DNA of 64,000 nucleotides from Tremella fuciformis. Its lineage: Eukaryota; Basidiomycota; Tremellomycetes; Tremellales; Tremellaceae. The stretch spans positions 3,038,001 to 3,102,000 of the forward strand of contig CP136490.1 of NCBI GenBank assembly GCA_032768795.1, read 5' to 3'. The position numbers and the translations under genes were made by a program. The notes under the pieces are model-generated. The model was given only the letters and a program-made list of their open reading frames with translations. It made no database searches and had not been told where the DNA came from. Below, piece after piece: positions 33,462-39,415 of the stretch. The number at the start of each line of letters is the position of its first letter. Within the stretch, counting starts at the first letter, position 1.

Positions 33462-33468
33462 ACCTTGT
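33462..33468. repeat. Target-site duplication, left copy
   Basis: ACCTTGT directly outside the left terminal inverted repeat, identical to 39409-39415 outside the right one, same orientation. Confidence 0.85.
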
Positions 33469-33488
33469 ACCGCGTCGAGATCGTCCCA
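33469..33488. repeat. Left terminal inverted repeat
   Basis: 20 bp beginning ACC and containing GCGTCGAGATCGTCCCA, the exact reverse complement of 39389-39405. One mismatch (third base) against the right repeat over 20 bp. Similarity fades beyond base 20. Confidence 0.85.
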
Positions 33489-33548
33489 CGCCGGTTGAAA
33501 TTTTTCGCCCGTCCGTTCACTTCATTCATTCGCCTCTTCACCCCGCCA

Positions 33549-34949
33549 ATGCTCATTTCACCAACATCCACCACCAAGGGACAGGGGGGGCAGACCAGTG
33601 AATCCCCGGCTCCCCCCCTCGATGGCAATGCCTCTGGCCTGACCCGCCATGCATTGAAACGCAGGCATGGCGACCGACCGACCGAGACCAACCGATCAAG
33701 CGAGCGGGCGAGCGAGCGACCGGTCGAGCGACTGGCGGACGAGGGGGTGACCGGAGGGGCAAAGTGAGTACGCTCTCTGCTCATCACCAGGCTTCGTCAT
33801 TCATCTCTGCCTCACTGCCCCTTGCAGGGCCAGGCGAAGCCATGCCAAAATTCTGTGCCAAGGCCAAGGCTGACTGGACTTAGGAAAAAATCACGCCCTT
33901 CCCGGCACCTCTACTCGGAACAAGTGTTCAACAAACACCCCCTCGATGTCACAACCTTCTCAGAGCCAAGCAATCCGGTGCTCCTTGAGCTTCTCCACCG
34001 CTTTCTCGATGCAAATCACCCACGCAGCTCGCAACGAGTCAATGCTACGCTTGAGGAGCTTCAGCTTGCCTATGCAAACATCCCTCGACAAGTTATTGCT
34101 GGCCCTGGCAATCAAGCCATCCGCTCTTCTCACTCGACACTCCCCTATCACATCATCCGCCTGGAGAAGATCATTGGGCGGGCCAGTAGGAGGGAGATCC
34201 TTGGCGTCTTTCGAAGATTTGATTCCTATGGTCCAGGCAAGCATGTTCCCAAGACAAACAGCCGGACAACACATGACTCCGACAATCATTTCCATCCTTA
34301 CCACTTTGCGATCATCAAACGACAGAGCAACACTCTGGGCACCACCAAAGACACCCTACAATCAGCTCGGAAGGCTCTGCACACCCCAACTTCATTGGAG
34401 CTTCGACGGCGTCAAGCTGCATATCACCTCACCAATACCTTGGACCGGCTGGTAGCAACACCGATTCGACGCTACTATGCAAAACTGGATCCCACCACCA
34501 CCGACTATGCCTTCCATGTTGGTCACTTTGCCAACATTGCTGCCGATGCCAACAACACTCAGCCACTCAATCAACAACTTCGATTTGGTGGGCTGGCCTC
34601 AGGCGTTGCATTTGGTTATGGGGAAGCTCGAAAGCCTCACCTCGATACCAATGACTCACCGGGGATCCCCTCCCTCATTGTCCAGCTGGATGGTCCTCCG
34701 GCTTTCACCCGTTTCCCCCAGCTCAACCTTGATGTCAAACTGTGTGCTGGCGACGCCATCATTGCACCAACAAGATCCCTCATTCACCACGGTCTGGGTG
34801 CTGGGAGTGTCACGGAGGAAAGGGTGACAGCAGTTTTCTACACCTGTCGGCACATGGAGAACCTAGTTGGGAAATCTTTGGATGGAACAATCACAGAGGG
34901 GGTCTTTGCTGGACTTGCTGACCACGATATCCATATACTTGATGAGTGA
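33549..34949 (+). CDS. 2-oxoglutarate/Fe(II)-dependent oxygenase-fold protein (TET/JBP-like candidate)
   Basis: The long final coding block (about 33870-34949) is certain. The 5' end is modelled from an upstream ATG at 33549, with a gtgagt donor at 33764 and a ttgcag acceptor at 33827. A second small intron (about 33855-33883) may follow. The catalytic core shows the double-stranded-helix facial triad: H-L-D (34638-34646, the H-x-D), a distal I-H-H-G histidine (34792-34803), and an arginine (E-E-R-V-T-A-V-F-Y) suited to bind 2-oxoglutarate. The strand pattern L-D-V-K-L-C-A-G-D-A-I-I-A precedes the distal histidine. This order fits the 2OG-Fe(II) oxygenases that basidiomycete transposons carry as TET/JBP relatives; substrate (methylcytosine, thymine or protein) is not known. 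The N-terminus is basic and disordered. Confidence 0.65.
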
Positions 34950-34976
34950 TGTACAAATTGTGGCAGGTGTTCTACC

Positions 34977-36507
34977 TCACAACTCGTTCCCGAGAAGCGG
35001 CTGGAGTTTGTCGCGTACCCAAGGTAGTACAAGATAGAACACTTCCCAAGCCGTTTCCCACCTGAGAGGCGGGCAAGTAGCACCCAGACCCAGCCTCGTT
35101 TCTTCCAGCAAATTGCTAGCCGCAACAGGTAGCCACCGGAGATGGCCGTCTGCCTCTATGTCTGTCATACATTGTAACAGATTCTCCTCCTCCTCTGACG
35201 GTATAGATTGTAGGCATTGCTCTCCTCCCCAATGTTGAGGATTTTCCCAGAAGCTTTCTCGCGGACCTCCAGATGGGTTCAGTTTGTCACGCTGCTTTCG
35301 AACTTTGTACGTGTTGTGAAAAAGACAGTGCTCATTGAGCGTCTCTTGCAGCAGTGGTGCAAATATCCACCAGAACAATGCACTGTCTGTGAGCTGGCGG
35401 CAAGCTGACGTGCGTACTGAAGGATTGCGGAGGGAGTCACCTGTGAGTTCCATTTGTTGGGACAAACCCCCCCGCCATCCCCTCATCAAGTTTCTTCTCC
35501 ACAAGTCTGTCTACCTCCTTGCAGATCACACCCCATGCACGCTCAATTGTGATGTTGCGAACTGATGGCAGTTGAATATGGGAAGGAATCTCGTTGAGAT
35601 CTTGGTGTGAATATGTTGTCCTCCTTTTTCAGCCATTGCAGTACGTTTAGAACAGAGCACGGTAGCCTTTTGCCTCACCTAAGATGCTCCTGACATTGAA
35701 ACATGAGCCCACATTCCGAGCCTCTGTCTGCGGCAATCTGTACGGGAAAGCCTGTTCTGATCAGCCGCATATGCACCCGCTTTTGTTGTTACACACCATG
35801 AGTTGCTCGTACGGTCTTGAGAAACAACCATTTGACGTTGGATGCAAGTCTGTTGCTGGGGAACACATGGAGAGCTAGGAATTTGCCAGAATACACGTCT
35901 CGGATGCCGTATATCCCAAACCCATGCTTTGACAGTTTGTCATGTCCGTCAACTGACCACTGCTCGTTTGCTCCTGCCGAGACAATAGGGGCTCGATGAG
36001 TGCGGCCTCTTTGCCCAAGCCGTCGCGCAACAAGGGCAGCTGGGTCCATATGGCGTAAAGCTTGTAGAACGGCAGATCTGCTGTGAGCGACATGGCATTT
36101 CAATGTGCTCACTGAGTTGTGTGGACTCCTACAAGGCTCAAAGCATGCTGTGAACCACGGAAGCCTCGTCCTTGATGGTAGAGCGGGAGCAATGTCAGTG
36201 CTTGTTCCAGGTCTGCTCCTCGTAAAGAAGCCTTCCTGTACCCCTCAATACCAAGCTGTTCTAAGCGTCGAAAGAATGTAGACCTCCCGCTGAGATGAGT
36301 CTCCAACATATCAAGTTATGTGTATGCGTACCCAAATGACAAATGAGGATACTTCTGCTTCAACTCGTTGTTGATTGCCTTGAAGACTCCATGATGTTTG
36401 TTGATCAAGGTTCGTAGTATGATGGTATCGTCTTTGGGATCAACTGCATGGTCAACACCTGAGTGAATCTTGGTAGAGTGCTTGCCTTGGTTTCGAGGGA
36501 TAGACAT
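34977..36507 (-). CDS. DDE integrase core-domain protein (transposase candidate)
   Basis: Six exons: 36507-36332, 36289-36113, 36080-35797, 35751-35679, 35623-35441 and 35382-34977, about 430 residues; an upstream in-frame ATG at 36618 is possible. The N-terminal part is helical and helix-turn-helix-like (R-R-L-E-Q-L-G-I-E-G-Y-R). It is followed by H-M-D-P-A-A-L-V-A-R-R, typical of the basidiomycete integrase-core family. The catalytic D is in W-S-V-D-G-H-D-K-L-S; the second D is in A-A-D-R-G-S-E; a candidate E is in I-E-R-A-W-G, about 43 residues on. Spacing of about 62 between the two aspartates fits an RNase H-fold integrase. The C-terminal block has G-G-E-Q-C-L. It probably mobilises the surrounding element. 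Confidence 0.8.
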
Positions 36508-36669
36508 GTTTGTGGGATATGAGATAGGTGGAACGAAATGATCAATGGGACCCTCCGTGCTAGTTGCACATTCAGGGTCAGTGCATAACGTAGATGTTAC
36601 GTCAACTCTGCCAAACAACCACCATGCCTGGGCAGGACGCGCTCAGCATAGAAGACATGCATAGATGTG

Positions 36670-39222
36670 TCATTTCAGCCCAAACGGCTCGTTCAGATCC
36701 AGTACCTCACAAATCAAAGCCGAAGGTGGTCTTGGCCCAATGGGGATATGGTCATACACACACTGACCTGTTTTTCGCCAGTCCTCACTGATCTCCGGGT
36801 TGCTCTGCCACAATTCTGCTTCTCCTTCCTCTCGTCGCCAGAATGGAATGTCTGCTGGATCACACACATACTCATAAAGGAGCTCAGATGGGTTGGTGAA
36901 AGGTTTGAGCTTGGCCTCCTTGCAGACGGGATTGCACTTGTGCCCGTAAAGAAATGCCTGCACCCCAGGATTACCTGCATCACCTGGGCCAAGAGTCCGA
37001 GCAAAGCTAAACGTCTGATTAGTTACTTGCTGATGGGTGCTTTATGATGACAACGAACGAGTGGGCCATCAGATCAAAAAGCCTGACTTGATAGGTGTTT
37101 GTTGCCTTCCCTATGTTGCGAGACCTGGCTGCTTCATTGGGCCAATACACAAAGCCTGATATTAGCATAGCAACTGAAGAGTTACCGGACATACCTTGTA
37201 CATCTGCTGGAACACATTCTCCATTTGTCGCCTTCTCGAAATGATAATGCAGCCATGCATGTATCTCTTGCTGAAGCACCATTGGCACGTACTCCTCATG
37301 AGCCGGCTGTGTGGTCTGGCGTTGGATGCCTTCATAGAAGGATCCAAAGAATTTCTGTTCGCGGACATGGTGTCCAGAAGGGGCAATGGAAAGGTCGGGC
37401 TCAATCAACCAGCTCCTTAGGGGCAGGCTATCCTCTCGAGAGCACTCCATGGCAATGAAACATGGGGTGATCCCAAAGCCTGGCCTATGAGTCGCCTTGC
37501 TGCTGCAATAGTACGGCTCACTGTGTGCAGTGCGAGCATTCTTCTTCCTCTTCAGGCCCCCCAGGAACTCGTCAAGGGACCGAGCAAGATAGACACCATG
37601 GGTCACATCAAGCCAGTTGAGATGGAGCTGCTGGTCCTCGTCGAGTGGAGCTTTAGGATTTGTGACCGAAAATGGAGCCTGGAGCGTGGCTTGCATAGTG
37701 AAATAGCGTTTAGCCACCCAATGAGTCTGTGAATTGCTGGCCAGTCGCATCTGAAGAATTGTCAGACACTGTCATTCTGTCACAACGACTTACCTTGTAC
37801 GCCAGCCTGAACATACCCTCCCCAAAATGCTCCTTCTCAACAAAAGCTTCCTCCACAATATCATGCCCAACTCTGACAATGTTGTCCTCCTCCTCTACAA
37901 AGCGCGGATAGATGCGTCGGATGTGAACCTTCTCAAAGCCACTGGGGGTAGTTGGGCCATTTTGTCCGCCGCTGTTCCGAGCGCGAGAAGTTGAAGGAAT
38001 GAACATGCTTTGAAAGAGGCTTTGCGAGGGGGGAAGTGCTAAGCTGATCAGCATGTTGTCTGCCCAAACCTCCTGACTTACTACTGGTGATGTATGACGG
38101 AAGAAGCTCATTGACAGTTTGGGAGGCACGTGTTGACACGGACATGCTTTTGGTCCCCTTTACCAACTTGATTGGTGTGAGATCCTCGACAGAAGAGTCA
38201 GGACTATGGCCTCGCTTCTGCTGGTCAGCTTACAAATAAGCCATCTGCCAACATTACGAACCCGTGTAAGAACAGTGGGCCGAACTGTGAATATGAGGTG
38301 GATATATCCATGTGCAACGTCCAAGGGTTTTCCGTAAAAGCCTTCTTTTGGCTTGAAGCGTTTGCGAAAGAATGTTGCAAGCAGCAGTTCACCCTCCTCA
38401 AAGTCATTGTCAAGGATGGCAGGCTTGCCAGCTTTGTCGTGCAAAGCCTTTGATGCCAATTCGCTTGCATGTTACCACCTTGATTCCTTCGCAGGAGAGG
38501 AAACACTGACTAGACTAGGTCAAACCCATATGTCGCAAAGCCCTGACCGGGCCCATTCCAACAGAGAACCACTTTCTCCCATGCAGCCAGCAGCATCTCC
38601 CTCACGAGCATGTTCCAATCTGGGTGAAGGTCGGGCACCTGGTAATTCCAAGGTCGAGGCTTCTTAGAAGAGTCTGATGCATCAGGCTTTGCAGGAAACA
38701 TTGCCACACACAACTTACCAGCTACAAAGACACTGATTTTCACAGCCGGATGATGGGGAACACCCTGATCCATGCCAGATTTGCGAGTTGCACGACTGCT
38801 GATGATCTGCTTGGAAGTGAGGGCATTGAAGGTTTGTCGAGAAGCTGCATTTGATTGACGATCCTCTGCAATGGCATCCAAAGATTTGGGATGCGCGGAA
38901 ACATCTGTTGATGAATTGATGCTGTGAAGCTTTTGCTGCCCAGTGCCAACATACCAGGAGCTTTGCACGCCGGGCATGTCCAAAGATCGGTTGATGTGCC
39001 ATCTATGTCTGCAAGGCCGAAAGCCCCGCACTGTTGACAGCAGCGAGCACGCAGCTAAAGTCAGCCTTTTGCATAAAGCTGGAAGAGATTGCTCACACCC
39101 GTCACCATTGGCAGCATCTGAGGCTTGTCCATTGCCATGGCCATTGCTTTGCAAAGCCCGCAGACATCACTGTTGGCGGGCATGGCAGGACGATCACAAT
39201 TGCACGAGCTGCACTTGGTCAT
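36670..39222 (-). CDS. Alpha-type protein kinase with N-terminal cysteine-rich domain
   Basis: Ten exons: 39222-39097, 39054-38955, 38904-38719, 38673-38511, 38463-38262, 38217-38082, 38038-37794, 37750-37195, 37155-37055 and 37014-36670. The first two exons encode two zinc-ribbon-like modules (C-S-S-C-N-C ... C-G-L-C and C-C-Q-Q-C-G ... C-P-A-C). The kinase domain begins F-V-E-K-E-H-F-G-E-G-M-F-R-L-A-Y-K, with the lysine of H-W-V-A-K-R-Y-F. It later has A-D-V-Q-G and the alpha-kinase C-terminal signature G-P-G-D-A-G-N-P-G ... F-L-Y-G-H-K-C-N-P-V-C. The usual L-T-D-P segment after the D-x-Q-G is not evident and may be lost or spliced differently (exon 9 borders are the least sure). Such kinases are expanded in basidiomycetes; here it sits inside a transposon. 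Confidence 0.75.
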
Positions 39223-39388
39223 ATTGATTCAGCAGCACAATGATCATGCGAGGTTTGGGGGGAGATGATGAGTGTCACTTGGCAAGGTGAGCACAGTTGA
39301 TGCATCTTGCAGTCGAACAAGCCATAGAAGTTCATTCAATGTCCATCATGAAAAGAGAAGTGTGCGTTGAGAGAAAAGAAAACGCCGA

Positions 39389-39408
39389 TGGGACGATCTC
39401 GACGCCGT
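39389..39408. repeat. Right terminal inverted repeat
   Basis: 20 bp ending CCGT. Contains TGGGACGATCTCGACGC, complementary to 33472-33488 of the left end. Confidence 0.85.
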
Positions 39409-39415
39409 ACCTTGT
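39409..39415. repeat. Target-site duplication, right copy
   Basis: ACCTTGT immediately outside the right inverted repeat; matches 33462-33468. Confidence 0.85.

Follow-up and report, generated by a model that had tools for sequence, protein, structure and literature searches.

A recently mobile, IS3EU-like DNA transposon with predicted genes for a transposase, an alpha-kinase and a TET/JBP-like oxygenase

We analysed a 64,000-nucleotide stretch of DNA (assembly GCA_032768795.1, contig CP136490.1, positions 3,038,001 to 3,102,000; hereafter the window) and found that the block at 33468-39409 is a real, complete and recently mobile DNA transposon of 5,942 bp. It carries predicted genes for a DDE transposase, a TET/JBP-like 2-oxoglutarate (2OG) oxygenase and an alpha-kinase. 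On the whole, we regard it as probable that this is a complete, recently mobile and apparently autonomous transposon related to IS3EU/GingerRoot, in which the three genes have the roles proposed below and the oxygenase is exchangeable between elements. The parts of the element, with its predicted genes, terminal inverted repeats (TIRs) and target site duplications (TSDs), are as follows.

33463..33467, unstranded: left 5-bp TSD, CCTTG, identical to 39410-39414
33468..33488, plus strand: left TIR, TACCGCGTCGAGATCGTCCCA, present in all five full copies
33549..34949, plus strand: putative gene for a TET/JBP-like 2OG oxygenase of 426 amino acids, with proposed exons at 33549-33763 and 33884-34949
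33816..33887, plus strand: stretch mostly within the proposed intron, 88% identical in the sister family despite a different oxygenase domain
34977..36507, minus strand: predicted transposase gene, PF24764, 6 exons, 432 amino acids, DDE triad D162, D221 and E264
36670..39222, minus strand: predicted alpha-kinase gene, PF02816, 9 exons placed by hand, 726 amino acids
39389..39409, minus strand: right TIR, reading TACGGCGTCGAGATCGTCCCA on the minus strand
39410..39414, unstranded: right 5-bp TSD, CCTTG

The ends were fixed by copies in the element's own genome (G000, 28.1 Mb, 11 contigs; coordinates outside the window carry a contig prefix). The sequence TAC(C/G)GCGTCGAGATCGTCCCA lies at 33468-33488 and recurs inverted at 39389-39409. 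Near-perfect inverted termini, as proposed in a first-pass annotation of this DNA, were thereby borne out, with TIRs of 21 nucleotides and a single mismatch once the outer T/A is counted. The same annotation read the flanking ACCTTGT as a 7-bp duplication. This was ruled out: the seven bases include the element's own terminal T on the left and its terminal A on the right, the duplication is 5 bp, and in a 7-base register only the window copy, one of the five full copies, has matching flanks. A search with the element body returned 17 matches, 5 of them full length, and these copies share both the ends and the genes, in agreement with the annotation's picture of a self-contained transposon of about 5.94 kb. 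Three of these copies, in the window, on C4 and on C8, show no difference over 5,942 bp, and the two on C2 and C3 agree fully over 5,937 bp; 442 substitutions and 45 indel columns (about 8%) separate this pair from the trio. The five full copies are bounded by the TSDs CCTTG, CACGT, GCGGC, TCGTG and CATGC, and their 60-nucleotide flanks look unrelated, indicating that they are independent insertions and not assembly duplicates. Because full copies are identical, their insertion is probably recent, as the annotation had supposed, three identical copies and two identical copies lying at different sites.

The TIR pattern matched the genome 23 times, against once for a reversed-pattern control, and the multiple copies rule out a chance origin of the TIRs. 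Besides the full copies we found five non-autonomous insertions with paired ends, whose TIRs match those of the element or resemble them (553, 664, 704, 2,923 and 2,013 bp). All have 5-bp TSDs; a 6-bp duplication was seen in none of the five. With a sister element at C1:5708373-5715240 (6,868 bp, TSD TACCC), this makes 11 complete insertions, all 11 of which have a 5-bp TSD and TAC...GTA (that is, TA...TA) termini. The count leaves out three TIR matches that are single, partnerless ends; on contig 10, two TIR ends stand alone with no partner end found, and none was found for a fragment bearing kinase sequence close to the end of contig 5. Four non-autonomous insertions with 5-bp TSDs (C3:1577849-1578512, C4:1236477-1237180, C5:1227177-1230099 and C6:1584268-1586280) have TIRs near those of the sister family (TACCGCGTCGAGATAGTGCCA), and the larger ones among them appear rearranged or nested.

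The hand-spliced transposase matches PF24764 (rva_4) with E=9.6e-13, consistent with the earlier assignment to a DDE integrase-type transposase and not to KDZ; with this domain and TIRs present, a KDZ/Kyakuja origin was ruled out. The spacing of its triad, whose roles were assigned by eye, is D-58-D-42-E. Both the transposase and the kinase models were spliced by hand, guided by the two subfamilies (the trio and the pair). Support for the transposase model comes from P0002, an intron-free database protein whose segments align to the transposase exons of the sister family with the introns missing. The contig behind P0002 is 1,356 bases long and of source 'lgn', presumably the Logan assemblies, so the protein probably reflects a transcript from this organism or from one almost identical to it; transcript evidence for the window's own three genes was not found. 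In our homology searches a protein was scored only if it had short words in common with the query, so that distant relatives are missed, and some of them scored top candidates only. Among the top candidates scored, the closest named relatives of the transposase are in Kwoniella, Tremella and Cryptococcus, with weaker matches in the Agaricomycetes Mycena, Sistotremastrum, Trametes and Polyporus; together with the named relative of the oxygenase, the closest ones make a Tremellomycete host probable. Another rva_4 integrase repeat, with a near-identical core of 2.46 kb and without TA...TA ends, lies at C3:2420477 and C1:3309200 (L060 and L059).

The presence of an alpha-kinase and a 2OG oxygenase on board, also part of the first-pass annotation, agrees with our results. 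The C-terminal part of the kinase (416 amino acids) matches PF02816 over the whole profile (1-185 of 185; E=5.6e-9, 36.8 bits against a curated cut-off of 21.3), and the predicted protein contains VAK, DVQG, GPGDAG and HxCNxxC, which we take to be alpha-kinase motifs. Its N-terminus bears Cys pairs that, judged by eye, are putatively zinc-binding. A search of the genome with the Alpha_kinase profile gave no match and missed the window's gene and the controls as well, probably because the gene is split into short exons; it is uninformative on other kinases.

The putative oxygenase consists of one long open reading frame and, ahead of it, a proposed exon 1 whose frame is partly kept in a Helitron copy. 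It was recognised by an HxD...H...R pattern and by a named relative that a source labels a Fe2OG dioxygenase domain protein. The motif of the 2OG fold, H324xD326...H373/H374...R385, is conserved, with flanking residues, in the aligned relatives. As the protein has HxD, it lacks the HxE hallmark of the published PE type. Among 5.8 billion database proteins the short-word search, which scored top candidates and misses distant relatives, found only two relatives, P0001 and P0017, neither with a Pfam domain; P0001, from Kwoniella shivajii, is 44% identical to the oxygenase over 50% of the query. A fragment of the oxygenase on C9 holds internal stops and was set aside.

We then compared the two subfamilies by Nei-Gojobori counts of the ratio of nonsynonymous to synonymous changes (dN/dS). 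Values of 0.111 for the transposase (432 codons), 0.138 for the kinase (726 codons) and 0.064 for the oxygenase (352 codons of exon 2) were obtained from exons without indels; the proposed oxygenase exon 1, which has indels between the subfamilies, was left out. The frames of the hand-spliced models are open, in keeping with the annotated intactness of the three genes. On these gene models, all three are under purifying selection, the oxygenase core most strictly, although such ratios record past selection and are not proof of present activity. They bear on the view that chance capture made the oxygenase and the kinase passive passengers, dispensable to the element. Insertion of non-autonomous copies, whose ends are the same or similar, is in line with this view, and Kojima, in the excerpts of the 2025 paper used here, argues for passive passage of TET genes between transposons (PMC12730594). 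Strong purifying selection on both genes, with the oxygenase more constrained than the transposase (0.064 against 0.111), disfavours it, and the sister family retains the order of kinase, transposase and an oxygenase unchanged. We therefore hold chance capture to be decidedly improbable.

The sister element has its kinase, transposase and oxygenase in the same order as the window element, but its oxygenase differs. The slot holds HFDRGD...PQLNMEIEL...GDILFF...H...R...FTC, and against PDB this protein best matches Naegleria Tet-like dioxygenases, weakly (E 0.07-0.1), a third match (0.56) being unrelated. The stretch at 33816..33887, upstream of the differing domains and still 88% identical, suggests that the catalytic part was swapped behind a common leader. 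Two relatives of the window's oxygenase, 61-62% identical to it (one match spans a TGA), are borne by Helitron copies at C1:2378423-2385062 and C1:4687959-4694598, whose left ends are approximate and which share 99.4% identity across the 5.7 kb compared. These oxygenase relatives lie about 4 kb from the Helitron Rep domains. The region common to both copies ends in CTAGT beside a short hairpin, as judged by eye; Helitrons end in a CTAGT-like sequence next to a short hairpin. A Helitron-borne relative and a different oxygenase in the sister family point to an oxygenase that is exchanged as a module between elements. It is possible, if short of probable, that the leader with a TET-like oxygenase forms an anti-silencing module exchanged across IS3EU-like elements and Helitrons, existing in two or more strongly divergent catalytic versions; the window's would be one more TET/JBP-like type besides the published PU, AG and PE, with a base substrate or product that is perhaps not TET-like.

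The two Helitron copies also hold a small further open frame, perhaps for an OB-type protein. Genome-wide, Helitron_like_N gave 70 matches, many with identical scores and some of them exon pieces of one gene, and there was apparently a large and recent Helitron burst in this 28-Mb genome. Matches at C7:1088935-1136786 repeat with a 23,668-bp period, which suggests a tandem repeat with units of this size or an assembly effect.

The composition of the element was examined next for traces of silencing. C-to-T type changes stand at 9.7% and 10.5% at CpG (either direction), against 2.4-5.5% at CpA, CpC and CpT. The observed/expected ratio of CpG is 0.62 in the element and 0.89-1.06 in flanking 3-kb windows (17 of 17); the sister element gives 0.54, the Helitron part 0.84 and the five non-autonomous insertions 0.62-0.86. 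Such CpG-biased mutation and depletion are consistent with CpG methylation of the element. An intron-rich candidate gene for a C5 cytosine methyltransferase is present at C3:1695113-1695280 and its flanks (L061), where three of the five pieces tested match PF00145 (E <0.003), with one exceeding the curated cut-off. CpG bias and a host methyltransferase gene together fit an anti-silencing role for the oxygenase, and from sequence a role in escaping methylation appears likely. In the mechanism we propose, the transposase would excise and re-insert the element, while the TET/JBP-like oxygenase would oxidise methylated bases on it and so would relieve CpG-methylation silencing by the host and the attendant mutation. 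For the alpha-kinase our guess is that it may phosphorylate a protein, of the host or of the transposon, with a regulatory part in transposition, repair or chromatin.

Several points weigh against this interpretation. CpG transitions can rise without methylation, and part of the CpG depletion could come from a different compositional origin. As the oxygenase-carrying elements are themselves CpG-depleted, any protection is incomplete. The window's oxygenase has no match to a 2OG family in Pfam and no relevant match in PDB, and its AlphaFold models were unusable, with a mean pLDDT (predicted local distance difference test) of 31.5 for the sequence alone and 34.9 with three sequences. The 5-bp TSDs also differ from the 6 bp, or 'usually' 6 bp, stated for IS3EU in the excerpted sources (PMC10045372, PMC12730594). 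An oxygenase acting on RNA or protein, as an AlkB-like enzyme or a hydroxylase that tunes translation or chromatin proteins and not DNA methylation, would sit well with the lack of a sequence match to Pfam Tet_JBP or solved TETs and with a database yield of two relatives devoid of Pfam domains. By eye, however, the layout HxD...PQLN(L/M)...GD...H...R...TC is common to the window's protein and the sister oxygenase, which is weakly Naegleria Tet-like, and TET/JBP genes are carried by rust IS3EU elements and fungal Helitrons, as excerpts of Kojima 2025 report (PMC12730594). An RNA- or protein-directed oxygenase is thus unlikely in our judgement, and action on methylated DNA remains the preferred reading.

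These findings extend transposon-borne kits of a TET/JBP-like gene and an alpha-kinase to a lineage apparently not reported in the excerpts of Kojima 2025 (PMC12730594). The alpha-kinase, given no role in those excerpts, has been maintained by selection here. A compact genome with identical, probably recent copies and past selection on all three genes, together with the Helitron relative and the sister's different oxygenase, makes the idea of a portable counter-silencing module directly testable. Literature searches that paired Tremella with IS3EU, or with transposon, dioxygenase or demethylation, found nothing; another pointed to a Microbotryum genome paper that mentions alpha-kinase (PMC4469406).

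Among known systems, Styx of Zymoseptoria is likewise fungal, related to IS3EU, furnished with extra genes and recently active; it differs in its 6-bp TSD and four coding sequences, and the excerpt of its description makes no mention of TET or alpha-kinase (PMC10853768). TET+ Kyakuja/KDZ elements also carry a TET/JBP gene, and two Kyakuja families have 7-bp TSDs, but their transposase is different and those two families are without TIRs (excerpts of PMC12730594). The first-pass annotation had tied TET/JBP genes to KDZ elements, a link too narrow given that TET genes also ride on other transposons and move between superfamilies (same source). In TET+ Helitrons, here the local one on C1 with its 61-62%-identical oxygenase (C1:2378423.. 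and C1:4687959..), Rep/helicase rolling-circle machinery takes the place of the transposase. Helitrons are not known to have TIRs or TSDs.

The closest counterparts are the TET+ IS3EU transposons of rust fungi (Pucciniales), which, in the excerpts of Kojima 2025, combine a transposase, a TET/JBP oxygenase and an alpha-kinase and are known from seven rust species, with one family in Tuber indicum (PMC12730594). Like them, the window element unites a probably IS3-like DDE transposase, a putative TET/JBP-type oxygenase and an alpha-kinase in one TIR element; the description of it as apparently undescribed consequently does not stand. IS3EU elements have TA...TA termini and usually 6-bp TSDs (excerpt of PMC10045372), and the rust families have 6-bp TSDs, TIRs of >30 bp and TAYGG..CCRTA ends (PMC12730594). 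The window element shares TA...TA, and its right end, TACGG, fits TAYGG while its left end, TACCG, does not; its TSD is 5 bp and its TIR 21 nucleotides. In all TET+ IS3EU of that account the TET gene lies between a transposase and an alpha-kinase of opposite orientation (PMC12730594), whereas here the order is oxygenase (+), transposase (-), kinase (-), with the transposase in the middle. The oxygenase is divergent and the host apparently not a rust (Tremellomycete-looking). Because TSD, TIR length and gene order differ, and apparently the type of oxygenase and the host as well, we call the element IS3EU-like and not a standard member. A distinct DDE superfamily, in which 5-bp TSDs mark a lineage of independent history, would account for the constant TSD (11 of 11), the shorter TIRs and the unlike gene order and orientation; but TA...TA termini, an rva_4 transposase and the unusual kinase and TET-like cargo all fit IS3EU, and shifts in TSD length are documented within related families (excerpt of PMC10045372), so that we find a separate superfamily improbable. 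The IS3EU-like element of the window is a rearranged version of a kit already described in rust fungi in 2025.

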